Assembly: GCF_009649845.1 (NCBI RefSeq)
Contig: NZ_WJIE01000003.1
Coordinates: forward strand, 124,001 to 188,000
Length of the DNA stretch: 64,000 nt
Source: Polyangium spumosum
GTDB taxonomy: Bacteria; Myxococcota_A; Polyangia; Polyangiales; Polyangiaceae
Direction of reading: 5' to 3'
The notes under the pieces are model-generated. The model saw only the letters and a list, made by a program, of their open reading frames with translations. It had not been told where the DNA came from and did no database searches. This document shows positions 6,010-40,200 of the stretch, piece after piece. Both the position numbers and the translations under genes were made by a program. The stretch's first letter is position 1, and every line of letters starts with the position of its first letter.

Positions 6010-6429
6010 CGAGGGGGTACGGGTTCAGCGTGAGCGGCAATTTTCCTGCCACCGGACCGATGCCCGGTAGAGCTCACCCGTCTCGCTGTGGGAACGTCGA
6101 TCGTTGCACTTTCTCGATCCTGGAATATCGACCGGTTTGCTCCCGTGGTGCCCCTACGGGTCTGGATCGCAGCGGTCTCCGGTCCTCACCGTAGATGTTT
6201 GCAGTCCTCACGCAGCCTGGCCGTTATACCTCAAAGTCCCAGCGGCGTGGGCGGATCCATGGGCCGGTTCTCGATGCTACCAGGGCCCGTGCCCAGGATC
6301 CCATTTCTCGGGCCCGTCCAAATACTGCTTTCTTTCCGGACATTTCAGCACGATTCTGCCCCGGACGCGTGCTGCGCATCACCCGGAATCGGTGGATTTT
6401 TTCCCCGCATGGAGGGAGCATCGCCCACC
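6010..6429. other. Intergenic region between divergent genes
   Basis: About 420 bp separates the divergent CHASE2 sensor and sedolisin genes. It is visibly less GC-rich than its surroundings (for example around 6090-6150 and 6320-6400) and must hold both promoters. It ends with a GGAGGGAG ribosome-binding site at 6411-6418. I could not pick out a convincing -35/-10 pair or a sigma-54 (GG-N10-GC) promoter, and I see no RNA gene. Confidence 0.5.
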
Positions 6430-8499: not shown

Positions 8500-8535
8500 T
8501 CGAGGAACACGCGTTGACTCGACAGCGCGGCCGGG

Positions 8536-8567
8536 CCGGCGCGAAGATGGGGCTCTCTTCGCGCCGG
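8536..8567 (+). terminator. 12-bp perfect hairpin between sedolisin gene and capC-like operon
   Basis: The arms CCGGCGCGAAGA (8536-8547) and TCTTCGCGCCGG (8556-8567) are perfectly complementary around an 8-nt loop, and ATTTCC follows. This is the strongest hairpin I found in a gap. It lies 37 bp after the sedolisin stop and 19 bp before the capC-like ATG. It could terminate the sedolisin transcript, although the T-run is only three long. It could also be a structured leader limiting translation of the downstream operon. Sequence alone does not decide. Confidence 0.45.
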
Positions 8568-8586
8568 ATTTCCTAGCCGCGACGCC

Positions 8587-11500
8587 ATGCTGGCCTCTCT
8601 CGCCGTCTTCCCGCCCAACGGTCTCGATCGAAGCCTGCACGTCGCCGTGCTCATCGGCCTCGTGATCGGGACCGTCTTCACCGAGCTCTTCGGCTGGACG
8701 TACGCGGGCCTCGTCGTCCCGGGTTACCTCGCGACGATCTTCATCGCCGCCCCCGCGACCGCGATCTTCATCATCGTCGAGTCTGTCGTGACGTACTGGC
8801 TCGTCGCGGGCGTGGGCCGGTGGGTCACGCACCTCGGCGCGTGGTCGGCGGCGTTCGGGCGCGAGCGGTTTTACCTGTTCATCGTGGGCGCGGTGCTCGT
8901 GCGGCTGCTCTTCGAGGGCGTGATCGTTCCGCGCGTCGAGGCGCAGTACGGCTACGCGCACTCGCGTGAGCTCTACAGCGTGGGGCTCGTGCTCGTGCCG
9001 CTCGTGTCGAACACGTTCTGGAACGCGGGCATCATCAAGGCGTTCCCGCGCGTCGGGTTCGTGACGGTGTTGACCTGGGTCCTGCTCGTCTTGCTCCTGC
9101 AGACGACGAACCTCTCGGTGTCGCGGTTCCAGGTCATCAACGAGAGCCTGTCGATCAAGTTCCTCGAGTCGCCGAAGGCGCAGATCATCCTCGTCATCGG
9201 CGCGCTGCTCGGCGCGCGGAACAACGTCAAGTACGGCTGGGACTACAACGGCATCCTCGTCCCGGGATTGCTCGCGGTCGCGTGTTACGAGCCCTTGAAG
9301 CTCGTGACGACGACGGTCGAAGCGCTGCTCGTGTACGGCGCATCGAAGGTCTTGATGAGCATGCCGCCCTTCTCGCGCATGCTCATCGTCGGGCCGCGGC
9401 GCATGCTCATGTGTTACATCACGGGCTTCTTCGTGAAGATGATCCTCGGGTTCGTCCTGGCCTATTTCTGGCCGGGTGTACCGATGATCGACTACTTCGG
9501 CTTCGGCTACCTCTTGCCGAGCCTGCTGGCGGTGAAGATGTGGAACAAGGACCACATCGGCATCGTCGTCATGCCGACGCTGCAGGTGTCGATCACGGCG
9601 TTCCTCGTGGGCAACGGGATCGGCTACGGGCTCGTGAAGGCGGAGGGGCTGCTCGTGCCGCGCGCCGCGATCTCGGAGATCGCGATGATCACGAGCGGCG
9701 CGAGCGTGCCGTACGAGCTCACGCTGGGCGACACGGGGCCGAGGCCGAGGCCGGCGGCGGAGCGATCGGCAGGGATCGCCGCGGTGGAGGTGGCGCTCGA
9801 GGTCGCGAGCGAGGTGGACGCGTTCGACGCGGCGCGCGGCGGGGAGGAGGTCTCGCCGCGGACGCTCACGACGGCGAAGACCGCAGGGCTCGTGGTCGCG
9901 CGGGAAGAAAAAGGCGGCTGGGTGGTGGCGCGTCCGCGCGCGTCGGAGATCGATCCGGACGACGTGACGCCCGCGCCACGCTTCGCGGTGCGGCCGAGGC
10001 CGAAGGCGGAGCCGGGGCTCGACGCGCGTCGTGGAGGGACGCTGGTGCTCGCCTCGCCCGAGGGGCCCGGCTCGGCGCTGTCGGCGCTCGCGCACGCGGC
10101 GGCGGAGGCGCTCGAGGCGCGGGCGATCGTGCTCCTGTCACGGCACGAGGGGCAGAGGGCGCTCGACGAGGCGTTCGCGGCGGAGCTCGGCAAGCGGCTC
10201 GGGCTGGAGCAGATGCTCGTGGTCGAGGCCGCGCCGGGAGACACGGCGCCAGGCTTGAGCGCGGTCGGATCGGTGCCCGAGGGCTTCGACGTGATGGCGC
10301 TCGGCCGCATGCTCGGCAAGGACGTGACGCTCTCGTGGCGGGCGCCGGTGCAAGGGGCGTCGCAGCGGCCGTGGTCGAACGCGCCGACGTTGCGTGTGCC
10401 CGTGTCGCTCGCGGAGGAGGTCGGGGGATCGCTGCTCGGCGCGCGGGAGGTCGACGTGTGGCCGCTCGGCTTGCGGCACGAGCTCGTGAGCCGGCTCGTC
10501 GCGCTGACGTCGGTGGGGACGGCGGGTTATCGCGGGCCGACGATCGAGGAGCTGCGCCTCTTCGACGCGACGCTCTCGCGGCGGATGACGCACGTGGGGC
10601 TCGAGCCGAGGTGGACGGCGTGGGAGCGCGCGGTCGCGGCGAGGTTCGGCTACACGATCGTGCGGGTGCACCGGCCCGAGGGCGAGCTCGAGGCGTGGGG
10701 GCTCGTGGAGGACACGACGGGCGGGCGGCGCGGGAACGCGAGCTTGTTCGTGAAGGTGGAGCATGCGGAAGAAGCGGTCGCGCCGGGCGACATCCTCGTC
10801 GAGGTGCCTGCGCCGCGCTGGGAGATCGGGACGTTCGGCGCGGGTTTGTCGCTCTACGACGCGCTCGGGGCGCGCGGGCTCCTGCTCGCGGGCGCGCTGC
10901 CGAGCGCCGATCCGCGCGGGATCGCCGATCCGCGGCGGCGGGTGTCGCGGCGATCGTTCTTCCAGCGCGTGCACGAGGTCTGGCTCGGCGAGGGCAAGAG
11001 CGGCGTCAGCATGCAGGGCATCGCCCCGGAGCGCGACTACACGGGTGACGTCGTGGTCTCGTTCGGGCGTGAGGTGATCCGGCGCGAGCAGGTGCCCGTG
11101 TGGGCGCGGCCGATGGTGGAGGTGTTCGGCGATCTCGGCTTGCGCGTGGGGATGTTCGACGGAGCGCGCGAGCACGCCCCGTACAACGGCTCGGCGGATC
11201 TCTCGATGAGCTACGCGCGCAAGTTCGCCGATGGACGGTTCGCGCTCGTGTACATGTCGGGCGAGCTGCGATCGGCGATGTCCGCCGTCGAGAGCGACGG
11301 CATCCTCACGCCGCGGCTCGGTCGGCTCGGCGTGGATCTCGGCTCGGAGGACGTCGCGTCGCGCGCGTTCGAGCTCGTCGCGTGCAAGGCGGCGCCGCCC
11401 GCGCCCAAGGGGGCGAAGAAGAAGAAGGACGGGAAGAAGAAGGCGGACGACGCGGCCCCGGCGGAGGCCTCGACGTCACGTTGCCCGAGCTTCACGGCGG

Positions 11501-11802
11501 AGGCGGCGGACCGCTGCGACGTCGATGTGCGCCTCGAGAGCTTCGAGCGGTACCTCGATCAGCACAACCCGTTCGATCTGCGGGCGGCGATCAAGGACGA
11601 TCGGGGCTGCCACGTCGAGGTGGTGCGGGACCAGGTGTCCCGGCGGATCTGGGCGCTCGTCGCGGAGCCCGGGCAGGTCGTGCTGGTGCCGCTCGGGAAC
11701 AGCCGGGTGCCGCGGGCGCCGAGGCCGCTCGCCTCGATCGTGCGGGTGCGGCGCGCGGTGGCGACGGGCCTGACCAGCATACGGGTGATGGAAAGCCCGT
11801 GA
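8587..11802 (+). CDS. capC: Tandem-duplicated CapC/PgsC-type membrane protein with large C-terminal extension
   Basis: A 1071-residue protein whose first ~350 residues contain two complete CapC/PgsC units. PgsC is the small membrane partner of the poly-gamma-glutamate synthetase. Unit 1 has GLVVPGYL (41-48), GRERFYLFIVGAVLVRLLFE and SVGLVLVPLVSNTF; unit 2 has GILVPGLLA (222-230), RRMLMCYITGFFVKMIL and FGYLLPSLLA. These match the order of the corresponding blocks in Bacillus PgsC (about 150 aa), so the region looks like an internal duplication. After the last membrane segment come ~700 residues of unrecognised soluble sequence (with GTLVLASPEGPG near 480 and a Lys-rich KGAKKKKDGKKKADD linker near 940). 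No Shine-Dalgarno sequence is obvious before the ATG. The TGA overlaps the next gene's GTG. It is the first of five coupled genes ending in a CapB/PgsB-type ligase. Confidence 0.82.
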   Translation: MLASLAVFPPNGLDRSLHVAVLIGLVIGTVFTELFGWTYAGLVVPGYLATIFIAAPATAIFIIVESVVTYWLVAGVGRWVTHLGAWSAAFGRERFYLFIVGAVLVRLLFEGVIVPRVEAQYGYAHSRELYSVGLVLVPLVSNTFWNAGIIKAFPRVGFVTVLTWVLLVLLLQTTNLSVSRFQVINESLSIKFLESPKAQIILVIGALLGARNNVKYGWDYNGILVPGLLAVACYEPLKLVTTTVEALLVYGASKVLMSMPPFSRMLIVGPRRMLMCYITGFFVKMILGFVLAYFWPGVPMIDYFGFGYLLPSLLAVKMWNKDHIGIVVMPTLQVSITAFLVGNGIGYGLVKAEGLLVPRAAISEIAMITSGASVPYELTLGDTGPRPRPAAERSAGIAAVEVALEVASEVDAFDAARGGEEVSPRTLTTAKTAGLVVAREEKGGWVVARPRASEIDPDDVTPAPRFAVRPRPKAEPGLDARRGGTLVLASPEGPGSALSALAHAAAEALEARAIVLLSRHEGQRALDEAFAAELGKRLGLEQMLVVEAAPGDTAPGLSAVGSVPEGFDVMALGRMLGKDVTLSWRAPVQGASQRPWSNAPTLRVPVSLAEEVGGSLLGAREVDVWPLGLRHELVSRLVALTSVGTAGYRGPTIEELRLFDATLSRRMTHVGLEPRWTAWERAVAARFGYTIVRVHRPEGELEAWGLVEDTTGGRRGNASLFVKVEHAEEAVAPGDILVEVPAPRWEIGTFGAGLSLYDALGARGLLLAGALPSADPRGIADPRRRVSRRSFFQRVHEVWLGEGKSGVSMQGIAPERDYTGDVVVSFGREVIRREQVPVWARPMVEVFGDLGLRVGMFDGAREHAPYNGSADLSMSYARKFADGRFALVYMSGELRSAMSAVESDGILTPRLGRLGVDLGSEDVASRAFELVACKAAPPAPKGAKKKKDGKKKADDAAPAEASTSRCPSFTAEAADRCDVDVRLESFERYLDQHNPFDLRAAIKDDRGCHVEVVRDQVSRRIWALVAEPGQVVLVPLGNSRVPRAPRPLASIVRVRRAVATGLTSIRVMESP

Positions 11803-14309
11803 TCATCCGCTGGTTCATCGTCGCGCTCGTCTTCTTCGGCTGGGCGGCCTTGCTCTGGCCGCTCAGCGCGCCGCCGCCCGCGTCCCACCTCGCGCTGCCG
11901 GCGATGGACGAGATCCTCGCCTACCGCGTCGACCCGGACAAACCCGTCTCCGTGAAGGTGCCCTCGTCGATCGACGCGGTCGTGGTCTCGACCTGGGCGC
12001 TCGTGGCGCGCGCGACCGTTTGTGATCCAAAGGCTCGGTTTTCGTACGGGTTCGAAGCGACGTTCGTCGACGAGAAGGGCAAGGACGTCCAGACGCACAG
12101 GTTCGAGCTCGAGAGCCGGCTCTCCTGCGACGACAAGGACGGCGCCACGGCGGGCGAGTACGCGGCGCGGGTCGCGCAAGGCGACGAGTGGGTGCTCGAT
12201 CCACGCACGACCACGATCACCACGGCGGAGCTGCTCCCGCGCGGCGGCGTGATGCGCATGCGCGGGCTGCCGATCTCGGTGAAGGACGTGCTCTCGCGGG
12301 TGGAAGGCCGCTACCGGCGCGGATCGTACGAGCGCAAGTTCTACGAGATGAGCCTCGACGACGAGGATCGATCCCGCGTCGTCTCCGACATGACCTCGCT
12401 CGGCTTCGAGGACCTGCCCGAGACGGCGCGATCACGCGCGCTCTCGGGCTGGGATCGGCGCCTCGACGCGGCCGGGCTCGAAGGCAAAGACTACACGCTG
12501 CGGAGGCTCCTGCTCCGCAACTACCGCACGCCCTTCCCCGCGGCCGCGGGCACGGTGCCGGGTCACTCGGTCGGCGAGCGGCACGCGGCCGCGATCAACG
12601 TGATGGGCCCGGTCGAGCTCGACGTGCTCGCGCCGCCGGGGCGATCCGTGACGGTCAGCGAAGGCGGAGGCGGCGGCGCGCGTATGCTCACGGTGCCGGA
12701 GGACGGCGTGTTCCACGTGTCGTCGTCGCGCCTGAACCCACGCACGTTCGTGGTCGAGGGCAAGGGCGACGATTTCCTCGTGCGGTTCGTCCTTCCGAAA
12801 CCTTACGAGCGGGCGCAGATCGGCGACCTGATCGCGCTGCCCTTCGAGGGAGAGCGGCTCGAGATCCGGCCCGACGTGCGGGTCGTGAAGTACCTCAAGC
12901 TCGACCCCGAGCGGCCGGTCGTCGCGCGTGTGGCGCCCGAGCAGCCGTACCTCGGCCTCCTGCTCCGCGCGGAGCTTCCCGAGGCGGGCGCGCCCGACTC
13001 GATGGCCGGCACGGTCGTCGCGCGCTGGGGCTCCGGGCCGAACGAGCGCGCCGAGCTGCGACAGACCTTGCCCCGCTCGCGCTTCGAACGCTGGGGCCGG
13101 CCGCGGGATCAAGCCGCCGAGGGCGCGATCGCCGCGAGCGACAAGACCGAGGCCGACGCGACCGATCCGCGCCGCGCGATCCTGCGCATCCCGAAGGGCG
13201 CCACGAAGATCGAGATCCTCGGCGACGCGCACATGCGCGTGCACCTGCGCGTGCTCGATCCCGGCGTGCCCGAGGACATCCTGCGCGTGCCTTACCGCGT
13301 CGAGCTCGCCGAGGACGAGCTCTGGCGCTACGCGCCCTTCGACGTGCGCACCTGGACGCCCATCCGCGCCGAGAACCAGAACGAGCTCGAGCGCCAGGGC
13401 CGCGTCGCCGACCTCTACGAGCAGGTCCGCATCGAGCTCCGGGGCAAACCTTCGCCGAGCGAGGCGGGCCAGAAGCCCGAGCGCACCCTCGTGCCGGATC
13501 AAGCCCCCGTCCGCAGGCGTTTCCTCGCCCCGTACGAGCTCGCCGCGAAGGAGCTCTTGCCGCACGACGGCTGGACGCCGCTCGATCTCGGGAGCGCGCT
13601 GAAGCTCGGGATCGGCTACGCGGGGGAGCGCGGCGGGCGGCTGAAGGTGCTCTACCGGGCGCACCCGTCGCGGCTCGGGAAGATGGCCGAGCTCTGGATC
13701 GACGGCAAAAACATGGTGGAGCAGCCGATCGCGTCGCTCTCGGGCGTGCTCCGGGCGAGCCTCCCGGCGGGCATCCACGACATCCAGGTGAAGGGCATCG
13801 GCGACGGGCTCGTGTATGCAGACGGCTCACCGTGGGAGGGCGGCGCGATCATGCGGCGCCGCGACGTCTTCGAGTTGCCCGCGCGCAGTCCGCTCACCTT
13901 CACGTTCCGGCAGCGCCCGGGCGAGTCGCTCACGCTCGTGCTCTTCGTGATCAGCGAGAGCTCGGCGCGGCCCTTCAAGATCCGCTACAGCATCGACGGG
14001 GGCAACCCCGCGCGGCAGAAGGGCGCGTTTTTCCGGTCGATCACGACGGCGAGCGGCGAGCTCTCGGGCCGCACGGGCGACGCGGGCATGGGTCTGCTCT
14101 GGGAGGCGCGCAGGACGGCGAAGGAGGCGCGGCAAAACCCGGACGGGCTCGCCAAGGTGAAGATCCCGATCGGCGACGACCTCGCGCCCGGCCTGCGGAC
14201 GATCAAGATCGAGAGCTTCGATCGCGTGTGGATCGGGGCGGTGCTCGTGGGACAGGCGCCGCTGCCCGGGGACCTCGAGCCCAGGCTTTGGTCGGAGGAC
14301 GATCTGTGA
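11799..14309 (+). CDS. Membrane-anchored periplasmic protein of the CapB/CapC operon, unknown family
   Basis: I do not recognise the family. The protein is 836 residues if it starts at the GTG at 11799, which overlaps the capC-like TGA (GTGA). This start places a single hydrophobic anchor (IIRWFIVALVFFGWAALLW) at the very N-terminus, which supports it. The rest is hydrophilic, beta-rich looking and cysteine-poor, without further membrane segments, so it should sit in the periplasm. A segment near residues 600-760 has jelly-roll-like alternation (for example LTFTFRQRPGESLTLVLFV). Translational coupling on both sides (its TGA overlaps the next GTG) argues that it is a subunit of the same complex as the CapC-like and CapB-like proteins, perhaps an adaptor spanning inner and outer membrane. 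That role is inference. Confidence 0.78.
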   Translation: MIIRWFIVALVFFGWAALLWPLSAPPPASHLALPAMDEILAYRVDPDKPVSVKVPSSIDAVVVSTWALVARATVCDPKARFSYGFEATFVDEKGKDVQTHRFELESRLSCDDKDGATAGEYAARVAQGDEWVLDPRTTTITTAELLPRGGVMRMRGLPISVKDVLSRVEGRYRRGSYERKFYEMSLDDEDRSRVVSDMTSLGFEDLPETARSRALSGWDRRLDAAGLEGKDYTLRRLLLRNYRTPFPAAAGTVPGHSVGERHAAAINVMGPVELDVLAPPGRSVTVSEGGGGGARMLTVPEDGVFHVSSSRLNPRTFVVEGKGDDFLVRFVLPKPYERAQIGDLIALPFEGERLEIRPDVRVVKYLKLDPERPVVARVAPEQPYLGLLLRAELPEAGAPDSMAGTVVARWGSGPNERAELRQTLPRSRFERWGRPRDQAAEGAIAASDKTEADATDPRRAILRIPKGATKIEILGDAHMRVHLRVLDPGVPEDILRVPYRVELAEDELWRYAPFDVRTWTPIRAENQNELERQGRVADLYEQVRIELRGKPSPSEAGQKPERTLVPDQAPVRRRFLAPYELAAKELLPHDGWTPLDLGSALKLGIGYAGERGGRLKVLYRAHPSRLGKMAELWIDGKNMVEQPIASLSGVLRASLPAGIHDIQVKGIGDGLVYADGSPWEGGAIMRRRDVFELPARSPLTFTFRQRPGESLTLVLFVISESSARPFKIRYSIDGGNPARQKGAFFRSITTASGELSGRTGDAGMGLLWEARRTAKEARQNPDGLAKVKIPIGDDLAPGLRTIKIESFDRVWIGAVLVGQAPLPGDLEPRLWSEDDL

Positions 14310-15463
14310 AGAGTGCGCGTTTGGCAGGGCTCGTCGCGACGACGTTGCTCTTCGGTTGTGGGACGCCCTCCTGCCCGAAGAGCCCGCCCGCGCCTGCGGC
14401 TGCGGCTTGTCCCCCCGCGGAGGCTTCCGCCATGATGACCGGCGTGGACGAGGAGGCGACGAAGGCCCTCGAAGAGAGGCTCGCCAAGCTGCGCAAGGGC
14501 GGTCGCCGGACGATCACGTACAAGGCGCCGACGGACGCGGAAGAGCGCGCCTACGCCGCGTGGGTGCGCGACGCGCTCGTCGCCGCGACCGAACGCAAAG
14601 AGCCGCCGAAGAAGGCGCCCGCGGGGTTTTCGCTCCGGGTGCTCGGCGACGTGTGGCTGCTCGAAGAGGTGCGGAGGAGGAAACGCGGCGCGGGCGTGGT
14701 CGTGATGCGCACGGGGCGCGCGAGGCCGATCTTCGTGGAGGCACCGCACACGTTCCACGACGCAGGCACGTTGCCGATCGCGCTCGCGGTGTTCGAGGCG
14801 CAAGCGGCGCGGGTGCTGCTCGTCAACACGGCGCACCGCTACATCGATCGGCCCGCGGACGCCACGAAGGACGCGGGCGCGAAGGACGAGAAGGCGGCGA
14901 GCGGGAGCAAGGACAAGGCCGCGGAAGAAGGGGACGAGGTCGACGAGAAGGACGAGGCCGACGACGAGAAAGGCGCGGCCGTGGAGGAGCCCGCGGGGGT
15001 CGATCGCGACGAGGCGGACGATCCGAACGTGGCGGCCCCGGTGGTCGCTTCGGACGTGGCCCACGCGGAGCGTTCGTTCTTCCACGCGGCCCACCGCGAG
15101 CTCGTCGCGCTCGTGCGAGGCGCCGTCACCGTGCAGATCCACGGCTTCCGCGACGACAAGTCCGAGGGCACGGGCGTCATCGTGAGCGCCGCCAAGACGA
15201 ACGCCGACGCCGCGGCCCTCGCCGCGCGCCTCGGGCCTGCCGTCGAAGGCACGAAGGTTCGTCTCTACCCGACCGACGTCTCGATCCTCGGCGGCACGAT
15301 CAACCAGCAGGCGCGCACCTGCCGCGAGCTCGGCGCGCCCTTCTTCCACATCGAGATCGCGCGCACGCTCCGCGACGGGCTCGGCGCCGACAAACAGAAA
15401 CGCGCGCGCTTCGCCGCCGCGCTCGACCCGATCTTCGCCCAGCCAAAACCCCCGAACCCATGA
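14306..15463 (+). CDS. Lipoprotein resembling poly-gamma-glutamate hydrolase / amidohydrolase fold
   Basis: A 385-residue lipoprotein (signal with lipobox LLFGC, Cys18), starting at a GTG that overlaps the preceding TGA. A disordered Lys/Asp/Glu-rich insert occupies about residues 188-235. Around it are blocks that recall zinc-dependent gamma-PGA hydrolases and N-formylglutamate amidohydrolase-like enzymes: EAPHTFHDAGT (about 145-155), VQIHGFRDD (about 276-284), and a C-terminal ARTCRELGAPFFHIEIARTLR block whose Arg/Glu pattern resembles the end of that hydrolase family. His and Glu in these blocks are candidate metal ligands. A polymer-cutting enzyme would make sense for trimming or releasing chains made by the CapB/CapC-like proteins. 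The match is by eye and remote; the lipoprotein and operon assignments are firm, the enzymatic role is not. Its stop overlaps the next ATG (ATGA). Confidence 0.72.
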   Translation: MKSARLAGLVATTLLFGCGTPSCPKSPPAPAAAACPPAEASAMMTGVDEEATKALEERLAKLRKGGRRTITYKAPTDAEERAYAAWVRDALVAATERKEPPKKAPAGFSLRVLGDVWLLEEVRRRKRGAGVVVMRTGRARPIFVEAPHTFHDAGTLPIALAVFEAQAARVLLVNTAHRYIDRPADATKDAGAKDEKAASGSKDKAAEEGDEVDEKDEADDEKGAAVEEPAGVDRDEADDPNVAAPVVASDVAHAERSFFHAAHRELVALVRGAVTVQIHGFRDDKSEGTGVIVSAAKTNADAAALAARLGPAVEGTKVRLYPTDVSILGGTINQQARTCRELGAPFFHIEIARTLRDGLGADKQKRARFAAALDPIFAQPKPPNP

Positions 15464-18400
15464 ACGTTCGGTCTGCCCTCGCCGCGGCCCTCGGCCTCGC
15501 CCTCGGCCTCGCGCCCAGGGCGGCGCGCGCCGCCGAGCCGAGCCTCGATCCTCCCGGCTGGGTCGCGCCCTCTCGCGCCCGCGTCGCGCCCTTCTCGCTC
15601 GAGACCCCCACGCGAGGCAGCGCCGCCGAGGTCGATCCGAGCGCGCCGATCTCCCTCGCGAAGGGCTCGGTCTTGCTCCTGCCCATCGAGCCCGGTGATC
15701 GCGTCCGCCTCGAAGGACCCGTCGCCGCCGTGGGCCTCGGGACCGGCGTGCGCGACGTGCCCGATGTGGTGACGTGGCTCCCGCTGCCGAAGACCATCCC
15801 CCCGCGCGCCCCGAGCGGCCCCGAGACCCGCGTCGTCGACGTCCCCATGTGGACCGGCGCCCGGTTCCTCGTGGTCCGGACCGACAAACCCGCCTCGATC
15901 ACCGCCTCGATGGGCAGCCTCCTCCGCTCCTCGCTCGCCTGGCACAGGCTCGACGAGGACGTCACGCGCTGGCTGCGTGATCCATCCGCGCCCCGCCCCG
16001 AGACCACCATCCCCGAGGCCGCCTCGATCCTGCGCTGGCTCTTCGCCGCGAAGAGCGCGCTCGAAGCCGCGCCGCCCGATTCCACCCGCGACTGGCTCAC
16101 CGTCCGCTGGCTCGAGAGCTCCCTCCTCGTCCGCCCCCTCGTCGAGCCCTGGTTCGTCCGCCGCCCGGTCTCCCTCGAAGGCGGCCGTGACGCCCGCGAG
16201 GCCGCGGATCACCTCAGCGCCGACCCCGACGCCTCCCCGTGGCGCCTCGTCCTCGCCTCCCGCGGCGCGCTCGCCGCCAGGGCGAACCGCATCGTCGTCG
16301 ACGCGCCCGCCTCCGACGTCGTTCGCCTCTCCATCCAGGCCCGCGGCATCGGCGCCGCCCGCGCCGTCGTGCGCGCCGGCGACCTCATCGTCCGCGAGCT
16401 CTCCTGGGACGTCGCCACCCGCACCGCCGACGCCGAGCGATGGACCGCGACGCAGACGATCCGCGTCCCCTTGCCGGTCGACCACCGCCGCGTCTCCGTC
16501 GAGGCCCTCGAAGGCGAGATCGCCGTCGCCGCCACCGCCTTCCGCAAGCGCGCCGATGTCCTCGACGTCGTGCCTCGCGCCCGGGACCGCGAAGCCCGCC
16601 TCGACGCCCTCACCGACGGCGCGAAGGAGCCCGCCGCGGCCGCCGCCCTCCGCCTCGCCGCCGCCGCCGATCGCTCGGGCCGCGCGGTTGACGCCCAGGC
16701 CGCCAGGAAACGCGCCCAGGCGAACGACGTCCCCCCCGCCCTCCGCGCCTTCCTCCTCGCCGAATCTGTAAATTGGGCAACAACTCCAGGGGAGGCACGC
16801 GAGGCCGCCGAACGCGCCACAGACCTCGCCCGCGCCCTGCCCGCCGGCGCCGTCGGCCCTGTCCTGCGCGCCGTCCTCGAGCGCCTCGCCGCTTCCCACC
16901 GCGACCCCCTCCCGCCGCCGCGCCCCTGGGAGCGCCCTCTGCCCGAGGCCACCCACGAGGACGACCGCGCCGCCCTCGACGCGCTCCGCGCCATGCTCAC
17001 GCCCCCCGAGGACGGCCGCCGCCCCGCCGCCGCGCCCCTCGCCGAGCGGTATGCCTGGCTCCACGGCGACCTGCCCGGCGCCGCCGACCGCGCCCGACGC
17101 ACCTGGATCCGCGAGGCGCCCTGGGACACCCTCGACCCGCCCTCCGGCTCGGTCGTCTGGAACGACATCTCCGTCCCGTTCGACACCTTCGGCAGCGCCC
17201 GCTGCGCCCTCGTCGGCACGCGTGGCCTGCGCTGGACCGTCCTCCGCGAGGGCCGCGCCGACATCGACGTCCTCCCGCCCCCCGCGCCCGCGACCCACAC
17301 CCGCCTCCTCGTCATTTCCAGCCAGACCGACCCGGCCGCCGAGACCTCCCTCCGCATCGACGGCGTCGCCGCCGCCGTCCACACCGGCGCCGGGCTCGGC
17401 ACCGGCCTCGCCGTCACCCCGGGCCGCCACGCCTTCGAGCGCCCTCTCGGCGCCGTCCCCCTCTTCGCCCGCATCCCTCGCGACGGCTCGGCGCCTTGCG
17501 ACACCCTCCGCGAGCTCACCCGCTGGGTCCGCTTGAAGGGTGACGCCAGGTTCCGCATCCCCGACCCTGGCCGCGCCACCGTCGCCCGCGTCGTCGCGCA
17601 CGCCGCCGAGAGCGGCGCCCGCAAGCCTCGACGCCTCCACATCCGTGTCGGCGACCGCGTCTACGAGGCCTGGGTCGACGCCGGCGCGACCGGCGCGATC
17701 GAGGTCCCCGTCCCCGCCGACGTCGGCGAGCTCCAGGTCGAGACCGAGGAAGAGGCCCTCCTGCGCGTCTCGGCGCGCCTCCACCCGCGCCGCCCCCCCG
17801 AGCCGCGTGTCCCCGCCGCGGCCCGAGAGACCTCCCCCGAGGCCATCGCCCTCCTCCTCGCCCGCGTCCGCGATGCCACCCGCGCCCTCGAAAAGGCCCC
17901 GCCTGCCCAGCAGGACGAGCTCCGAAAACAGCGCGCCGAGGCCCTCGAATCCCTCGGGTATTCCACGCTCGCCGCCCTCGACCGCAAGGGCGAAATCCCC
18001 CTCGAAGCGGTCGAGGAGCCGGACGCCCAGGGCCCCGCGCAGGCCCTCCGCCTGCCTGCCGAGAGCCCCGCCGTCGTCCCCCTCGGCCTCATCCCGCGTA
18101 TCCCGCCCCTCCCCTTGCCGAAGGACCTCGATCCGCTCACCCGCGCCCGCCGCGCCGAGGCCGCCGACGACACCGCCGCCGCCCTGAAGGCCCTCCTCGA
18201 GGGCAACGCCCGCGCCTCCACCCATGCCGACGGCTTGCTCTACGCCGTCCTCGCCGAGCGCACCGGCGCCGGCTGGATCGCCGCCGAGATCTTCGAACGT
18301 ATCGGCTTCGTACACGGCTCCGGCCCTGCCCTCGCCCGCGCCGCCTCCCTCTCCGCCGACCGCGCCGCCGACGACGGCGACCGCGCCCGCGCCCTGCGCA

Positions 18401-20310
18401 GCTACGTCCTCGCGCACCACGCCGTCGAGAACGGCGATCCCGCCTCACACGCCTTCGCGCGCCTCGCGCCTGCCGTGGGTTGGCTCGCCGTCGCCCGCGC
18501 CGACAACGCCGCGGGCACCGCCCTCGTCGACGTCCGCGGGGGCCGCGCCCCTTCGCTCGGCATGAAGGTCCGCCGCGCCCTGCTCGACGCCCCCGACGAC
18601 GCCCTCCTGCTCGCCGAAGGCCAGCACGTCGAGCTCCGCGTCCGCCGGAACAAGCCCACGAACCTCGGCATCACGACCCACTGCCTCGCCCTCGAAGACG
18701 ACCCCGCCTGCCAGCTCACGGTCGAGATCGACGGTAAACCCACGCCTTGTGGAAACAATCCCACATCTACCCACACGGCATGCACCCTCTCCCTCCCGCG
18801 GGGCCGGCACCGCGTCGAGATCCGCGCCCCGCGTGGCCGAAATGTCCTCGGCTCCGCTCGGTTCGAGGGGGACGGCGGCTTCTCCGTGCAGGCCCGCGTC
18901 GTCTCCGAGTGGTTCGAGATCGACCCCGAGCGCCCCCTCGAGCTCACCTTCGCCGCCCCCACCGTCGTCCGCCTCCAGGCCCGCGGCCCCGCCGGCGAAC
19001 CTCGCACCCTCGGCTGGTCCATCGACCCGCACGTCGACCTCCCCAGCACCACCTCCCGCGGCGAGCTCACCCTCGATCCCGCCGCCGATCCGGCCGCGCA
19101 CCTCGTCGGTGGTGACCCGAACACCCTCCTCCCGCTCGGCCAGGAGCTCGAAAAACGTTTCCCCGTCCTGCCCGACGGCCCCCACACCCTCCACGTCACC
19201 TCCCCCGGCGGCCGCGCCCTCGTCCGCGTCCAGCTCGCCGTCCCCGTCGGCTTGCCCAAACCTCGCCGCGTCCCGCCCGTTCCGGCCCTCCGCCCCTCGC
19301 CCACCGGCGCCCCCGAGCCACCCCTCCGCGTCGCCCCCGACATCGTCTCCGACGCCGATCCCGGCCGGGCCCTCCTCTCCGCTTACGCCCGCCTCGTCGA
19401 CCTCGACGTCGGCGACGAGGACAGGCTCACCGGCGCGCGCCTCCTCGAGGTCGGCGTCGCCCTGCGCCGCGAGCTCGAATCCATCCACGCCTGGACCCAG
19501 GGCTCCTTCTTCGCCCGCGCCCGCTTCGGCGCCCCGAGCTTTGGCCTCGCCGGCTCCTTCGACCTCGCCCCGAACGGCTTCGTCCCCGGCCTCTTCGTCC
19601 GCGGCCGCGTCGTCGCCCAGCCGGTGGACACCTTCGGCCTCGGCGCCCGCGGCCTCGCCGGTGTCCTCTGGTCGGTCCCCCTCGCCGACTCCGTCTCCCT
19701 CGTCCCCTGGGGCGGCGCCGCCCTCATCCTCACCGACCCCACCCTCGCCGGCCGCGACGACGCCGACCGCGAGGTCTGGACCCGTTATTCCAGCACCCAC
19801 CCCACCTACGGCGTCGTGGGCCTCCGCGCCCTCTTCCGCCCGGCCGTCGACGCCCTCGCGAGCCTCGGCGTCTCCACCCGCACCACCCCCGACTTCGCCG
19901 GCATCGACCGCGCCGACCTCGAAGCCCAGCTCCACCTCCTCCCGGGCCGTGGCCTCTCGCCCTGGATCACCCTCGGCGCCTTCACCAGCTACCGGCCGGC
20001 CGGCTACGACCGCGCCGAATCCTTCCTTCGCAGCGGCGCGAGCGCCCAGCTCACGTTCTGGACGTGGCTCACCCGCGGCCATCGCCTCAGCGCGGGCGCC
20101 GAGGGTCGGGTCTTGCTCGACGTCCCCCGCGAAGCCTCGCCCTTCCGACTTTCCGGAGGTATCTTCGTGGGATACGACCTCGCGGGTGGCAGGGGCCTTC
20201 GTGACCTGCCGCCGCGGGAGGCACCGTTCCGCGCTCGGCTCGAAGAAGGCAGCGGCCGCGTCGACAGGCGCCGCACCTCCTCCGAGCCGACCTGGGGCAC
20301 GCCGCCTTGA
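15460..20310 (+). CDS. Giant exported protein with repeat-rich periplasmic part and probable outer-membrane beta-barrel C-terminus
   Basis: A 1616-residue protein with a clear signal peptide (NVRSALAAALGLALGLA, ending ARAAEP). The ATG overlaps the upstream TGA. The long middle part contains helical TPR-like stretches (about residues 395-460 and 900-990) between beta-rich segments. The last ~280 residues (from about 1335) look like amphipathic beta-strands alternating with Asp/Gly/Pro turns (for example GSFDLAPNGFVPGLFVRGRV, TFGLGARGLAGVLWSV and LSAGAEGRVLLDV), as in an outer-membrane barrel. Such a TPR-plus-barrel arrangement is used by polysaccharide exporters like PgaA and BcsC, so export of the polymer across the outer membrane is a reasonable inference. 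No named family was recognised. The coding strand is unusually C-rich, giving long open antisense frames that I regard as artefacts. Confidence 0.75.
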   Translation: MNVRSALAAALGLALGLAPRAARAAEPSLDPPGWVAPSRARVAPFSLETPTRGSAAEVDPSAPISLAKGSVLLLPIEPGDRVRLEGPVAAVGLGTGVRDVPDVVTWLPLPKTIPPRAPSGPETRVVDVPMWTGARFLVVRTDKPASITASMGSLLRSSLAWHRLDEDVTRWLRDPSAPRPETTIPEAASILRWLFAAKSALEAAPPDSTRDWLTVRWLESSLLVRPLVEPWFVRRPVSLEGGRDAREAADHLSADPDASPWRLVLASRGALAARANRIVVDAPASDVVRLSIQARGIGAARAVVRAGDLIVRELSWDVATRTADAERWTATQTIRVPLPVDHRRVSVEALEGEIAVAATAFRKRADVLDVVPRARDREARLDALTDGAKEPAAAAALRLAAAADRSGRAVDAQAARKRAQANDVPPALRAFLLAESVNWATTPGEAREAAERATDLARALPAGAVGPVLRAVLERLAASHRDPLPPPRPWERPLPEATHEDDRAALDALRAMLTPPEDGRRPAAAPLAERYAWLHGDLPGAADRARRTWIREAPWDTLDPPSGSVVWNDISVPFDTFGSARCALVGTRGLRWTVLREGRADIDVLPPPAPATHTRLLVISSQTDPAAETSLRIDGVAAAVHTGAGLGTGLAVTPGRHAFERPLGAVPLFARIPRDGSAPCDTLRELTRWVRLKGDARFRIPDPGRATVARVVAHAAESGARKPRRLHIRVGDRVYEAWVDAGATGAIEVPVPADVGELQVETEEEALLRVSARLHPRRPPEPRVPAAARETSPEAIALLLARVRDATRALEKAPPAQQDELRKQRAEALESLGYSTLAALDRKGEIPLEAVEEPDAQGPAQALRLPAESPAVVPLGLIPRIPPLPLPKDLDPLTRARRAEAADDTAAALKALLEGNARASTHADGLLYAVLAERTGAGWIAAEIFERIGFVHGSGPALARAASLSADRAADDGDRARALRSYVLAHHAVENGDPASHAFARLAPAVGWLAVARADNAAGTALVDVRGGRAPSLGMKVRRALLDAPDDALLLAEGQHVELRVRRNKPTNLGITTHCLALEDDPACQLTVEIDGKPTPCGNNPTSTHTACTLSLPRGRHRVEIRAPRGRNVLGSARFEGDGGFSVQARVVSEWFEIDPERPLELTFAAPTVVRLQARGPAGEPRTLGWSIDPHVDLPSTTSRGELTLDPAADPAAHLVGGDPNTLLPLGQELEKRFPVLPDGPHTLHVTSPGGRALVRVQLAVPVGLPKPRRVPPVPALRPSPTGAPEPPLRVAPDIVSDADPGRALLSAYARLVDLDVGDEDRLTGARLLEVGVALRRELESIHAWTQGSFFARARFGAPSFGLAGSFDLAPNGFVPGLFVRGRVVAQPVDTFGLGARGLAGVLWSVPLADSVSLVPWGGAALILTDPTLAGRDDADREVWTRYSSTHPTYGVVGLRALFRPAVDALASLGVSTRTTPDFAGIDRADLEAQLHLLPGRGLSPWITLGAFTSYRPAGYDRAESFLRSGASAQLTFWTWLTRGHRLSAGAEGRVLLDVPREASPFRLSGGIFVGYDLAGGRGLRDLPPREAPFRARLEEGSGRVDRRRTSSEPTWGTPP

Positions 20311-23300
20311 GCCTGAAGTACCCCCTCGCTCCCGCGCTCATCAAACGTAGATCCCGCCACGCCGACGGGCGGGACGCGCTCGCGGTCGAGCTCTTCCAGA
20401 GCATCTCGCCCCTCATGGCGAAGCTGCGTGTCCCCACCGTCTCGCACCTCGCCGAGAACATCGCCGCCGAGCTCGGCCCTGGCCCGCACCCTCCGGGCAT
20501 CCTCATCGCCTCCCTCGTCCGCGCCGCCGACGTCGCCGTCGGCGAGCTCGACCGCCTCAACGGCGAGGGCGCCTCGCTCATGGTCGCCTACCAGGGCGCC
20601 TCCACGCCCGAGGACAAACGCCAGATCCTCATCGCCCACCTCCGCGCCTCGGCCAGGAGCCGCCTCGACGCCCGCCGCGACATCCAGGCCACGAAGCGCT
20701 GGCTCGACATGGAGGCCGTCCAGGAGCGCTTCGCCGCCCGCATCGCCGACCAGGTCGACGCCGTCGAGGTCGCCTACGAGGCGACGATCACCCAGGCCCG
20801 ATCCCTCTCCGAAAACGACGCGTTTCGCCTCCTCTCGGGCGGCGGCGTGCTCGAGTTCGCCATGTCGCACGCCTCGGCCGGGCGCCCTCAGCCCGTCCGG
20901 GTCGCGGCATTACGTGTCCTCTCGGCCCTGCTCGCGCGCCTCGCCCCTTCGCAGCGCCTCGGCCGCTTCGGCGTCGAGCGGGCGCGCCAGGTCCTCGCGT
21001 GGGCGCGTGGTGTCGACGCCATGCGCTGGGCGCAGGTCGCTTCGCTCGAGATCGCCGCCCTCGTCTTCCCTGACGGCGTCCGCGGCGTCATCTCCGAGCG
21101 CCTCCGCATTCGCTCCGGCAAGGACGGCCCCATCATCCGCCGCAATGCCTTGCGGATCCTCGCTACCCTCGGCGACGACCGCGCCCGCCTCGACACCGCC
21201 CTCATCGCGAAGGACGACCCGAGCGAACACGTCCGCCAGGAGCTCGCTCGCTTCCTCGGACAAACCCGCGTCGAAGGTGGGCTCGAAGAGCTCGTCAAGA
21301 TCGTCACCGAGGACAAATCGCCCCGCGTCCGCGGCCTCGGCATGCGCGTGCTCACGAAGCGCGCGGGCGGCTTCGCCTGCGAGGGCCCGCGCGCCGCGAA
21401 CGAGCCTCCCGCCGAGAATGGTGATCCTGCCGCGGCCGAGGCCCTGCTCGGCGTCATCCAGCGCGCCCTCACGAAACCCGAAGACTCGCTCCCCGTGCGG
21501 GTCGCGCTCGAATCGGTCAAGCTCGTCGCTGCGGGCGAAACGCCGATCCTCCGCCGGTCCCATTTCGCCGAGGCCCTCGCCGCGCTCGCCAACAATGAAA
21601 AGGCCGGCGCGGAGCTCACCGAGGGCGCGGCGGCCACGCTCCGCTGGCTCGAGGTCGCGGCCGACCCCGAGCTCGTGGCCCTCGCGCAGCGGTTCAAGGA
21701 CAAACTCGAAAAGATCAAAGAGGGCCGCTCCGCTCGATTCGACGTCCCGCCGAACACCCCGACGCGTGACCTCGAGCGCGCCCTCGCCGTCGCCGCCCGC
21801 GGCGACATGACCGTCTCCCTGCAGAAGCTCGGCCCCGGCAGATACACCCTCTGGCGCGGCGAGCCCCGGCGCTGGCGATTCTGGCGTTTCTTGAACGAGC
21901 TCAAGACGCCCATGCCGGACAAACGCAAAGGTTACCCCCACACCCAGGGCCGCGTCTGGCAGGGCGAGATCGTCGTCCCGCCGTATGGCATGGCCGAGGT
22001 GACGCCCACCCGCGTCCCCGGCGAGCGCCAGCTCTGCCCGCCCGTCGCCGGCTGGGGCCCCTTCTTGCCGCGCGTCGACGAGTTGCTCGCGGTCTGCTCC
22101 ATCTCGGGCAAACCCTTGCGCATGATCACGCCCGTCGGCACCGTCCTTCTCCGCGGCCCGGCCACGCTGAAGGAGCGCATGCGGGTCCGCTGGAGGCTCT
22201 CGCTCGAATATCCTCAGCTCGCCCTCGTCCGCCAGCGCTCCCTCTCGGCCAGCGAGCCGCGCGAGAAAAAGCTCTTCTGGCAAAAGGCCCAGGAGCTCGG
22301 GTTTTCCCTCGACGTCGTCGACACCGAGGGTGAGGTCGAGAATGCCCGCTTCCAGCTCGTCCCCCACCTCCCGCGTAATTTCTACGCCCCGCTCCCCTTC
22401 GCGCTCCCGCCGCTCGCCGAGCACGTCCTCTCGTTCTTGCTCTCGCCCTCGGGCAACACCCCGGCGCACCTCGCCGTCGTCGTGTGGAGCCTCTTTTCGT
22501 ACCTCATGCTCCGCACGGCCGTCATCATGCGTGGCATCGAGAAGGCGCGCGCCGCCATTCCGCTCTCGATCGGCGGCTGGGGCACCCGCGGCAAATCCGG
22601 CTCCGAGCGATTGAAGGCCGCGCTCTTCCACGCCATGCGGTACGACGTCGTCGTGAAGACCACCGGCTGCGAGGCCATGTTCATTCACGCGATGCGGGAC
22701 CTGCCGGCCGGCGAGATCTTCATCTATCGCCCCTACGACAAGGCCACGATCTGGGAGCAGCGGAACGTCCTCTTCACCGGGAAGAACCTCCATTGCCAGG
22801 TCTTCCTCTGGGAGTGCATGGCGCTCCAGCCGCGCTTCGTCGAGACGCTCTGCAACGAATGGATGCAGGACCCGATCACCACGCTCACGAACGCCTACCC
22901 CGACCACGAGGACATCCAGGGCCCCGGCGGCGAGGACGTCGCGCGCGTCATCTCCTGCTTCATGCCTCAGGACGGCGTCACCTTCACCTCCGAAGAGCAG
23001 ATGTTCCCGCTCTTCCTCGACAACGCGCGCCGCAAGAAGACGAAGCTCGTCCACGTCGCGCCCATCGAGGCGGACCTCATCCCCGTCGACCTCCTCCAGC
23101 GCCTCCCGTACCAGGAGCACCCGCGCAACGTCGCGCTCGTCCTCGAGCTCGCCGATTATTTCCAGATCGACCGTGAAAAGGCGCTCGTCGAGATCGCCGA
23201 CCACGTCATCCTCGACCTCGGCGTCTTGAAGACGTATCCCACGGTCGAATACCGCGGCCGCAAGCTCACCTTCTCCAATGGGATGAGCGCCAACGAGCGC

Positions 23301-24674
23301 GCCGGCTTCCTCTCCAACTGGACCCGCCTCGCCTACGACAAACACAACCCCGACGAGACGCCCGACCGGGCCACCTGCGCCGTCGTCAACAACCGCGCCG
23401 ACCGCGTCGCCCGCTCCCGCGTCTTCGCGCAGATCTTCGTCGACGACGCCGGCTGCGACCACATCGTCCTCATCAACACGAACCTCGGCGGCATGATGCA
23501 GTTCATCACCGAGGCCCTCGATAGCTGGCTCGGCGGCACCCGCATCACGGCCGACGCCGACAAGGAAAAGGCCCTCGTCAAGTTCGACGAATACCTCCGC
23601 CGCACCGGCACGCGCGCGGCAGGCGAGGCCCTCGAAGAGACGCTCCTCATCATGCTCAAGGCCCTGCCGATGGAGGACGAGGACGCCCGCAAGATCGTCG
23701 AGGACGCCCGCCCGCTCTTCTCGGCCACGCCCGAGGAGCTCGGCGGCGCGATCGAAAAAGCCTTGTCCGGAAAAACGCCACCCGAGGGCAAGGACGACAT
23801 CCGCCCCGACATCGTCACGCACACGATCCGCTACGCCAAGCGCACGAAGCTCCGCGACGACGCGAAGAAGCGCGTCTCGGGCGCGCTCGACCAGAAGGCG
23901 TGGGCCGAGGCGGACACGATCTTCCGCACCGCCTACCGCGAGCTCTTCCTCGAGCGCGTCTGCGTCCTCTGGAACGCCGGCTCCACGGGGGATCAGGTCA
24001 TCGATTTCATGGTGAAGCAGATCCCGCCCGGGATGGACGTGCGCATCATGGGCACGCAGAACATCAAGGGCACGGGCCTCGATTTCGTGTATCGCTGGCT
24101 CTCGATGGATCGCGTGCGTCATAACATCGAGAAGATGGAGACCACGCCGAGCGCGCGCGCCGAGGTGCTCACGTTCTTCATGTCGTACAACGATTTCAGC
24201 CTGATCGATTGCCGCGAGGCCCTCGACGCGGTCAAGCGCGCGAAGACGAGCGACGACCCCGACTGGCAGAAACACGCCAACCTGATCAACGCCGCCCTCG
24301 AGCGCTTATCGAACCTCGAGCGGGACAAGGTGACGAAGCTCCAGGCGACGGGCAAGGCGGGCCTCGGGCAACGCGTGCTCAACAAGGTCGAGCAGCTCTT
24401 CGACCACCTCGACTCGGTCCGCCGCACGAACACCGCGAAGACCGTGATGGACGACCTCTACGCCGCCCGCGTCGGCCACGGCCAGGCCGCCATTTTGCTG
24501 CGCGACGTCACGGGCCGCTCGAAGGGCGGCTGGCTCTACAAGGATTTGAAGAAATGGCTCGCCAAGCAGGAGGAGCGATTCCCCTGGCTCAAGGGCAAAG
24601 GCGATGAGGAGCCGAAGAAGGACGACAAGAAGGGCGACGCCCCGCCGGCCGGCGACCCCGCGCCGGCCGGCTGA
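20307..24674 (+). CDS. capB: Giant CapB/PgsB-type poly-gamma-glutamate synthetase-like ligase with HEAT-like N-terminus
   Basis: A 1455-residue Mur-ligase-superfamily protein. Residues about 190-480 form HEAT-like helical repeats. A membrane segment (about 722-742) then leads into a CapB/PgsB catalytic domain in the canonical order: P-loop GGWGTRGKS (756-764), KTTGCEA (784-790), ECMALQP (836-842), YPDHEDIQGP (about 872-881), NNRADRV (1028-1034) and, after a long helical insertion, MGTQNIKGTG (1248-1257). PgsB of Bacillus has the equivalents GIRGKS, KTTGTDA, SECMAVNP, EDHMDVMGP, NCRADRV and YGVGNIHG in about 390 aa, so this is a roughly fourfold enlarged version. It would activate a gamma-carboxylate with ATP and add an amino acid to a growing chain at the inner membrane. 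The start is a TTG overlapping the previous TGA; an in-frame ATG lies at 20415. The Lys/Asp/Pro-rich tail is probably disordered. Confidence 0.85.
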   Translation: MSLKYPLAPALIKRRSRHADGRDALAVELFQSISPLMAKLRVPTVSHLAENIAAELGPGPHPPGILIASLVRAADVAVGELDRLNGEGASLMVAYQGASTPEDKRQILIAHLRASARSRLDARRDIQATKRWLDMEAVQERFAARIADQVDAVEVAYEATITQARSLSENDAFRLLSGGGVLEFAMSHASAGRPQPVRVAALRVLSALLARLAPSQRLGRFGVERARQVLAWARGVDAMRWAQVASLEIAALVFPDGVRGVISERLRIRSGKDGPIIRRNALRILATLGDDRARLDTALIAKDDPSEHVRQELARFLGQTRVEGGLEELVKIVTEDKSPRVRGLGMRVLTKRAGGFACEGPRAANEPPAENGDPAAAEALLGVIQRALTKPEDSLPVRVALESVKLVAAGETPILRRSHFAEALAALANNEKAGAELTEGAAATLRWLEVAADPELVALAQRFKDKLEKIKEGRSARFDVPPNTPTRDLERALAVAARGDMTVSLQKLGPGRYTLWRGEPRRWRFWRFLNELKTPMPDKRKGYPHTQGRVWQGEIVVPPYGMAEVTPTRVPGERQLCPPVAGWGPFLPRVDELLAVCSISGKPLRMITPVGTVLLRGPATLKERMRVRWRLSLEYPQLALVRQRSLSASEPREKKLFWQKAQELGFSLDVVDTEGEVENARFQLVPHLPRNFYAPLPFALPPLAEHVLSFLLSPSGNTPAHLAVVVWSLFSYLMLRTAVIMRGIEKARAAIPLSIGGWGTRGKSGSERLKAALFHAMRYDVVVKTTGCEAMFIHAMRDLPAGEIFIYRPYDKATIWEQRNVLFTGKNLHCQVFLWECMALQPRFVETLCNEWMQDPITTLTNAYPDHEDIQGPGGEDVARVISCFMPQDGVTFTSEEQMFPLFLDNARRKKTKLVHVAPIEADLIPVDLLQRLPYQEHPRNVALVLELADYFQIDREKALVEIADHVILDLGVLKTYPTVEYRGRKLTFSNGMSANERAGFLSNWTRLAYDKHNPDETPDRATCAVVNNRADRVARSRVFAQIFVDDAGCDHIVLINTNLGGMMQFITEALDSWLGGTRITADADKEKALVKFDEYLRRTGTRAAGEALEETLLIMLKALPMEDEDARKIVEDARPLFSATPEELGGAIEKALSGKTPPEGKDDIRPDIVTHTIRYAKRTKLRDDAKKRVSGALDQKAWAEADTIFRTAYRELFLERVCVLWNAGSTGDQVIDFMVKQIPPGMDVRIMGTQNIKGTGLDFVYRWLSMDRVRHNIEKMETTPSARAEVLTFFMSYNDFSLIDCREALDAVKRAKTSDDPDWQKHANLINAALERLSNLERDKVTKLQATGKAGLGQRVLNKVEQLFDHLDSVRRTNTAKTVMDDLYAARVGHGQAAILLRDVTGRSKGGWLYKDLKKWLAKQEERFPWLKGKGDEEPKKDDKKGDAPPAGDPAPAG

Positions 24675-40044: not shown

Positions 40045-40200
40045 GGTCCACGCTCCTTCCACGCCCTGCGCCCGGCCAGGAGATGAATAAAAACGTGTGG
40101 TTACGTGCTCCGGCGTGTGTCCGACGGGCCGCGGCGTGTGGGAGCCGCGCCGCACGCGCCGCCGACGAGCGGGCGAGCCTGATCGGCTCCGAGCCCGCGT

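Follow-up and report, generated by a model that had tools for sequence, protein, structure and literature searches.

How might a polymer of amide-linked amino acids be made and passed through the envelope of a cell that has an outer membrane? The question is raised by five genes, here G1 to G5, in a 64,000-nt stretch of the Polyangium spumosum genome (contig NZ_WJIE01000003.1, positions 124,001–188,000); the whole of this stretch is referred to as the window. Loci for capsules of the poly-gamma-glutamate (PGA) type have been reported in most phyla, under a model in which CapB and CapC are mandatory and CapA and CapE accessory. For passage through the outer membrane, diderms are stated to require one or more additional proteins, and the accessible portion of that survey names no outer-membrane component for PGA (PMC5542703). 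The sole Gram-negative PGA producer named in the accessible portions of two further papers is Fusobacterium nucleatum (PMC3815933, PMC4928254), and no paper on a Gram-negative PGA outer-membrane exporter was found in the open-licence PMC literature. The five genes probably encode a machine that spans both membranes and serves the synthesis and export of PGA or a close gamma-linked polyamide, and the set could explain how such polymers pass an outer membrane. This reading is built on features that were computed directly: how the genes are built, their homologies and predicted folds, the residues that G3 retains and G1 has lost, gene order across phyla, and the co-occurrence and linkage of a CapA-like gene.

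The five genes, all on the + strand, are:
8587–11802, +: G1, 1071 aa, tandem CapC/PgsC membrane protein with a C-terminal pseudo-hydrolase domain
11799–14309, +: G2, 836 aa, a single membrane helix at the N-terminus, then a large part that is probably periplasmic
14306–15463, +: G3, 385 aa, lipoprotein-like hydrolase with a predicted gamma-PGA hydrolase/N-formylglutamate amidohydrolase fold
15460–20310, +: G4, 1616 aa, exported, with TPR-like helices, beta-sandwiches and a predicted C-terminal 14-strand outer-membrane barrel (residues 1305–1574)
20307–24674, +: G5, 1455 aa, extended PgsB/CapB-type amide ligase, with HEAT-like and EVTPTRVPGER regions preceding the ligase core

An earlier reading made from the sequence alone (the sequence-only reading) had described five co-directional genes. 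The block, 8587–24674, is confirmed, with a 4-bp stop/start overlap at all junctions. A promoter scan detected no promoter, and terminator-like sites are at about chance level (9 observed, against 6.3 in shuffled sequences, sd 3.1). The host genome comprises 10.76 Mb in 61 contigs, and the tandem CapC of G1 is the only CapC detected in it. The G5 ligase core is 99% identical to its Polyangium fumosum counterpart, and its best matches in the named genome collection are from Polyangium strains.

CapC and ligase proteins at the ends of the operon

Profile matches back the assignment of a CapC/PgsC-type protein to the first gene and a CapB/PgsB-type ligase to the last. G1 matches CapC PF14102 in two stretches (E 2.5e-46; 157.4 bits against a gathering score of 27), which places it within the family. 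Residues 738–1061 of G5 match PgsB TIGR04012 (E 1.5e-55), and the GGWGxRGKSG motif is kept in all five aligned sequences. The EVTPTRVPGER region, located before the ligase core, is strongly conserved; a HEAT_2 match (E 7.8e-6, 26.5 bits) is slightly below the Pfam cut-off of 27.7. No glycosyltransferase match was found in any of the five proteins with Pfam or NCBIfam. In one relative (L176, G023:C5:1201047-1205584; three-digit G numbers denote genomes and L numbers loci), G5 lies in two overlapping frames covering profile positions 14–781 and 772–1423, as a split gene or a frameshift.

Both end proteins score below the equivalog cut-offs: G1 reaches 83.1 bits against PgsC TIGR04011 (E 2.1e-23; cut-off 96.45) and G5 reaches 188.5 bits against TIGR04012 (cut-off 222.7). 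They are therefore related to PgsC and PgsB but fall outside those equivalog families. In a quick tree built on ligase cores, 81 extended forms are split by a fully supported and very long branch from 18 classical Myxococcota PgsB rows, among which three pairs are the same gene fetched twice. The Mur-ligase superfamily also includes enzymes that use other amino-acid substrates. These points would suit the same machine working on another polymer, such as one of another amino acid, a mixed gamma-peptide or a modified glutamate, with a hydrolase to match. We consider this a less probable alternative, though one of some weight. Against it, the predicted fold of G3 is that of hydrolases of glutamate compounds (PghP, YndL, N-formylglutamate amidohydrolase), a CapA-type partner co-occurs with the system, and the barrel lumen of G4 is net positive, as described below.

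Hydrolase, barrel and linking proteins

For G2, G3 and G4 no Pfam or NCBIfam match was found near any cut-off, and sequence searches of Pfam, NCBIfam, PHROG and PDB gave no useful match for G3 or G4. G3 was modelled with AlphaFold2 from 41 sequences (40 of the 46 listed G3 frames plus the window protein, near-duplicates and the fragment L155 being omitted), with a predicted local distance difference test score (pLDDT) of 80.7. The closest folds by VIA-align are Atu2144 (2odf, Z 14.7), a phage gamma-PGA hydrolase (3a9l, Z 13.9), YndL with a PGA ligand (5onj, Z 13.3) and a phage PGA hydrolase (21dc, Z 13.3), with 174–185 residues aligned at a root-mean-square deviation (rmsd) of 3.1–3.9. The N-formylglutamate amidohydrolase 2q7s matches with Z 13.6 (rmsd 2.7 over 176 residues), and the next match after this group is a carboxypeptidase at Z 11.5. 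The predicted structure of G3 thus places it, by fold, with gamma-PGA hydrolases and N-formylglutamate amidohydrolases. PghP is described, in the accessible part of its report, as a zinc enzyme that cuts gamma-PGA (PMC4497714). H148, D152, H279 and E350 are invariant in all 41 aligned G3 sequences and are candidates for a zinc site and catalytic Glu.

The hydrolase-like lipoprotein of the sequence-only reading is thereby supported for the hydrolase part by the predicted structure; the lipobox-like LLFGC at the start was recognized by eye. No lipobox-like cysteine is seen by eye in the Halomonas homologue (L114). The host genome also encodes a second, distant G3-like hydrolase (G000:C2:526938-527738, E 2.3e-19).

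The two CapC domains of G1 are followed by approximately 700 further residues, and the C-terminal domain of this part is homologous to G3 (hhalign probability 97.5, E 7.8e-12). Residue columns were taken from a MAFFT alignment of these distant sequences. The equivalent of E350 is kept in none of 40 G1 C-terminal domains (the window protein and 39 loci) and that of H279 in one; the equivalent of H148 is kept in three of the 34 domains covering that position. All three positions (148, 279 and 350) are retained in 11/11 G3 rows aligned beside them. By sequence, the domain is a degenerate copy of G3 that has lost the presumed catalytic residues, so that an apparently active hydrolase and a degenerate, membrane-fused copy of it are inherited together.

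G2 has a single helix predicted by hydropathy (residues 1–19) and sits between G1 and G3 in nine related loci (L031–L035, L037, L040, L041 and L045). A possible kinship with G4 (hhalign probability 48%) was not accepted as homology.

G4 has a signal-like start by eye. Its residues 880–1616 were modelled from 52 sequences (51 of the 56 listed C-terminal segments plus the window protein, near-duplicates being omitted), with a pLDDT of 85.3 and a predicted template modelling score (pTM) of 0.52. The model consists of N-terminal helices and beta-sandwich strands followed by 14 long strands at model positions 426–695. The helices, at model positions 9–126, are TPR-like by eye and have no TPR profile match in Pfam. 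Among solved barrels, the best matches are CymA (Z 18.8) and OmpG (Z 17.0–18.1), followed by FhaC (Z 14.7) and CdiB (Z 14.4); the polysaccharide exporters PelB (9h80, Z 14.3), 4y25 (Z 14.1) and BcsC (6tzk, Z 14.1) come next. The record title of 4y25 is 'polysaccharide outer membrane secretin', and we take this protein to be PgaA. The 14-strand prediction and these structural matches support the probable outer-membrane barrel that the sequence-only reading saw in the 1616-aa exported protein.

With strand facing assigned by hydropathy and G4 barrels alone measured, the lumen of the window protein has 16 K/R and 8 D/E, and K/R exceeds D/E in 47 of the 52 G4 sequences. A predicted lumen of this charge would suit a polyanion; it is not proof of the cargo. 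Homology of the C-terminal part across phyla is indicated by cross-profile searches: a Myxococcota G4 profile detects 30/30 other C-termini (E 2.6e-30 or better), and a non-Myxococcota profile detects 22/22 from Myxococcota (E 7.5e-6 or better). The segments were picked by position, each being the last 740 residues of the reading frame that precedes G5, and what is tested is therefore homology and not presence; the set of 30 includes L139, which is labelled Myxococcota in the tree. G4 is split into two adjacent genes in some Methylococcaceae/Crenothrix loci (L109, L110, L112, L116), the second encoding the barrel part; in L109 this gene has a lipobox-like start.

A second alternative bears on the role of the barrel. 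Short gamma-glutamyl chains might be attached to an envelope component, with G4 serving mainly as an outer-membrane anchor or receptor. G3 could set a short chain length, and the CapA-like protein described below has a CarboxypepD_reg domain and a weak CBM_4_9 match (E 0.0026, below the cut-off). The G4 barrel, however, resembles porins and exporters, and its helical arm lies before the barrel, as it does in PgaA and BcsC. Such surface decoration appears unlikely, though PGA is reported, in the accessible part of one paper, to stay bound to the wall in some Gram-positive bacteria (PMC5751247).

Conservation of the gene set and its partners

CapC is present in 25 of 59 relatives and the tandem gene in 17, the host genome counted. 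All five genes occur in order in seven of the 16 tandem loci from the other relatives (L031–L035, L037, L040), and in L041 and L045 G1–G4 are present up to the contig end. L039 has G1, G2, an insertion of approximately 7 kb and then G4, and L042 has only G1 and G2 at the locus; in the genomes of both, G3 and G5 are encoded elsewhere. The remaining five loci are on short contigs, and one of these, L044, has G1 and G3, with no G2 found by tblastn. The insertion in L039 (G023, ~8170–15740) carries an ATPase-like gene with a GENGTGKT motif, among others, and has a defence-type look by eye.

Outside this group, two G5 peptides were searched against the genomes of 84,980 species, and at least 258 relatives were found. 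The best 80 of these, on which the counts for distant loci rest, belong to Myxococcota, Pseudomonadota (alpha, beta, gamma and others), Nitrospirota, Planctomycetota, Acidobacteriota, Thermodesulfobacteriota and a Wallbacteria metagenome-assembled genome (MAG). Among 54 loci with at least 9 kb upstream of G5, profiles built from the window and its order-level relatives detect G3 in 48, G2 in 33, G4 in 25 and all three in 22. With the removal of six loci that supplied profile rows or are congeneric with such loci (L077–L080, L088, L090), the counts are 42/48, 27/48, 19/48 and 16/48, respectively. Broadened profiles, built in part from the counted loci, detect G3 in 48/54, G2 in 47/54 and G4 in 48/54. 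The G1 end of the set is detected in 38/54; where it is not, the 10-kb flank in most cases probably stops short of it. With the broad profiles, G2, G3 and G4 precede G5 in five phyla: Myxococcota, Pseudomonadota, Nitrospirota (L108), Planctomycetota (L135, L152) and Thermodesulfobacteriota (L136).

The gene order is shared by Polyangium, Methylovulum, Halomonas, Marinobacter, a Nitrospirota genome and a Planctomycetia MAG, which argues against a standard capBC pair interrupted by envelope genes that have nothing to do with it. Such a chance neighbourhood could be read from the scattered genes of G023 and G036 and from two Sorangium loci where G5 stands alone. G3 and G5 are nevertheless retained at other sites in G023 and G036 (no genome-wide search for G4 was made in G036), and this co-retention where linkage is lost also speaks against chance, which we regard as highly improbable. 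The sequence-only reading had let its proposal depend on profile support for the end proteins and on conservation of the middle genes with them. Profiles support CapC and PgsB, and genomes both related and distant hold the three middle genes in order together with G1 and G5, so the proposal passes its own test. Nor is the system peculiar to Myxococcota: the gene set recurs in Gamma- and Betaproteobacteria, Nitrospirota and Planctomycetota.

The same reading saw no CapA/PgsA homologue. This is correct for the operon, where a profile search found no PF09587 member, but not for the genome, which has three PF09587 matches, including:
L164:5357-7738: CapA-like protein, 793 aa, with a signal-like start; PF09587; outside the operon

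Long homologues of this protein occur in the tandem-CapC genomes G004, G014, G021, G023, G036 and G042. In a survey of 377 Myxococcota genomes, tandem CapC was defined as two CapC matches in one frame of at least 745 aa, and long CapA as a match of at least 478 bits. Long CapA was found in 21 genomes, tandem CapC in 35 and both in 19, that is, in 19/35 tandem-CapC genomes and 2/342 others (Fisher p 1.7e-20, kinship ignored). Six tandem-CapC genomes supplied the seed sequences of the CapA profile. A recount without the five sampled genomes that are seeds or of the same genus gave 16 with long CapA, 30 with tandem CapC and 14 with both, of 372 (14/30 and 2/342; Fisher p 1.8e-15, kinship ignored). 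CapA adjoins the operon in G093, G107, G129, G258, G061 and G238, and also in L107 and L123 (Methylococcaceae), L134 (Silicimonas), and L144 and L147 (Ramlibacter); G061 and G238 are outside the long-CapA list and yet carry this linked, lower-scoring CapA. G167 has no CapC match, and there CapA lies next to a G3. Judged from these sequence comparisons, the system seems to include the third classical PGA component, though it is unlinked in Polyangium; no other correction to the sequence-only reading is as strong.

Genes that flank the operon in the window include:
3511–6009, −: sensor-kinase-like membrane protein, 832 aa, divergent from G1; no Pfam match
6088–8499: kumamolisin-type (S53) peptidase with a pro-kumamolisin domain and Gly-rich and poly-Ser tracts, between the sensor-like gene and G1
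24684–26441, −: asparagine-synthase-like gene, converging on G5
29193–30482, −: MPAB/rubber-oxygenase-type protein (PF09995)
31871–40155, −: penicillin-binding protein (transglycosylase/transpeptidase) gene adjoining an alpha-2-macroglobulin gene

Homologues of the sensor-kinase-like gene divergently adjoin G1 in L037, L041, L042 and L045. G003, G004 and G023 have the arrangement of the window, with a divergent kinase-like gene and an S53-type peptidase gene between, and L038 and L043 have partial matches upstream of G1 on the same strand. The product is related (hhalign probability 98.5, E 3.2e-15) to operon-linked kinase-like proteins of two Alphaproteobacteria, one Acidobacteriota genome and two Myxococcota MAG-type genomes. 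The 3511–6009 gene probably encodes a regulator of the system. The alphaproteobacterial and Acidobacteriota kinase-like neighbours had been taken by eye for CHASE2 kinases, an assignment not upheld by Pfam, which gave CHASE2 only in L183 (E 2.1e-4, below the cut-off); HATPase_c is found among these neighbours only in L141. In the alphaproteobacterial and acidobacterial variants L115, L134 and L141, the cluster includes kinase-like and receiver-like genes, and G5 has no G4 match next to it. The kumamolisin-type peptidase gene is also present in other Polyangium genomes (~73%) and in G023 (57%), and the asparagine-synthase-like gene was found by tblastn in no related locus read.

Proposed mechanism and likeness to known systems

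We infer the nature of the polymer, the topology of G1, export, the direction and order of the steps, and regulation from the features above. G5, as an ATP-dependent PgsB-type ligase, would add residues at the cytoplasmic face, and the tandem CapC domains of G1 would form the inner-membrane part of the synthase or conduit. The dead hydrolase domain of G1 may bind and guide the chain, and G2 may be the periplasmic link that helps to receive and guide it. G3, as the active hydrolase, would trim or clear chains in the periplasm, as BcsZ and AlgL do for polysaccharides. G4 would collect the chain on its helical and beta-sandwich arm, from which it would pass outward through the positively lined 14-strand barrel. 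The separately encoded CapA-like protein and the sensor-kinase-like neighbour would belong to the same system. The profiles, predicted structures and wide synteny support the proposal of the sequence-only reading, a trans-envelope machine analogous to PgaABCD or Bcs that would act on a polyamide, its transport and polymer being the conjectural parts.

Several observations weigh against synthesis and export of PGA by this machine. The system is known here from genes and predicted folds. To the missed equivalog cut-offs are added the barrel comparisons, in which CymA, OmpG and FhaC match G4 as well as or better than the polysaccharide exporters do. The top folds for G3 tie between PGA hydrolases and N-formylglutamate amidohydrolase and are not separable by fold similarity, and G2 gave no useful Pfam, NCBIfam, PHROG or PDB sequence match. 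Hydropathy and charge do not settle the side of the membrane on which the C-terminal domain of G1 lies, and a cytoplasmic placement is possible. Six of the 54 long loci have no G4 match beside G5 (L081 and L083 from Sorangium, L115, L121, L134 and L141); neither Sorangium locus has any of G1–G4 there, and L121 has a G4-like frame farther upstream. Long CapA is not matched in 16 of the 35 tandem-CapC genomes. Finally, short two-gene capB–capC loci are common in Myxococcota, and G014 has both the short and the tandem type. Three of the short loci (L047–L049, 20 kb read in each) share the two core families with the Polyangium operon and differ in having a single CapC domain, a ligase of ~400–420 aa and no match to the G2, G3, G4 or CapA profiles. 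A CapC/CapB pair is therefore not always accompanied by this exporter and can do something in its absence. Short operons are thus not restricted, as the sequence-only reading had it, to cells that need no outer-membrane exporter.

Taken with these points, PGA or a close relative is still the polymer that we favour. The balance tips slightly towards a broader claim, that the genes represent an undescribed class of amide-polymer outer-membrane exporter, present in at least five phyla, in which a dead, CapC-fused hydrolase hands the chain to its active sister and to a 14-strand exporter, and that this is how diderms secrete polyglutamate. Deleting the genes one at a time in species of Halomonas, Marinobacter, Ramlibacter or Corallococcus would put the question of export directly to the test. 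The set of an extended PgsB, CapC, a hydrolase, its degenerate twin and a barrel also points to possible new Gram-negative producers of PGA.

Known systems resemble this one in part. With PghP/YndL gamma-PGA hydrolases and N-formylglutamate amidohydrolases, G3 shares its predicted fold, with invariant His/Asp/His/Glu; it differs from them in lacking any Pfam or PHROG sequence match and in having a conserved stretch ahead of the hydrolase fold and a start that resembles an export signal. In the Pga, Bcs, Alg and Pel systems an inner-membrane synthase is combined with a periplasmic hydrolase or modifying enzyme and with a helical arm and outer-membrane barrel. The overall layout proposed here would be the same, and the predicted G4 barrel aligns with 4y25, PelB and BcsC. 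An amide ligase, however, replaces the glycosyltransferase, CymA and OmpG are the closest barrels, no sequence relation was found, and 14 strands are predicted in place of the 16 of PgaA and BcsC. Since its synthase is a ligase, the system is not a member of that class.

A further counterpart is the PgsBCA(E)/CapBCA(E) synthetase of Bacillus, which likewise has a PgsB-type ligase, a CapC-type membrane protein and a CapA-type (PF09587) partner. In Polyangium, by contrast, two CapC domains and a pseudo-hydrolase are joined in one protein, the ligase is extended by ~700 residues at its N-terminus, and the CapA-like protein is larger and encoded away from the operon; three extra envelope proteins, including the predicted outer-membrane barrel, are also present. 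By its sequence relationships, the system is one of the PgsBC kind, with an enlarged architecture and with scores below the equivalog thresholds.

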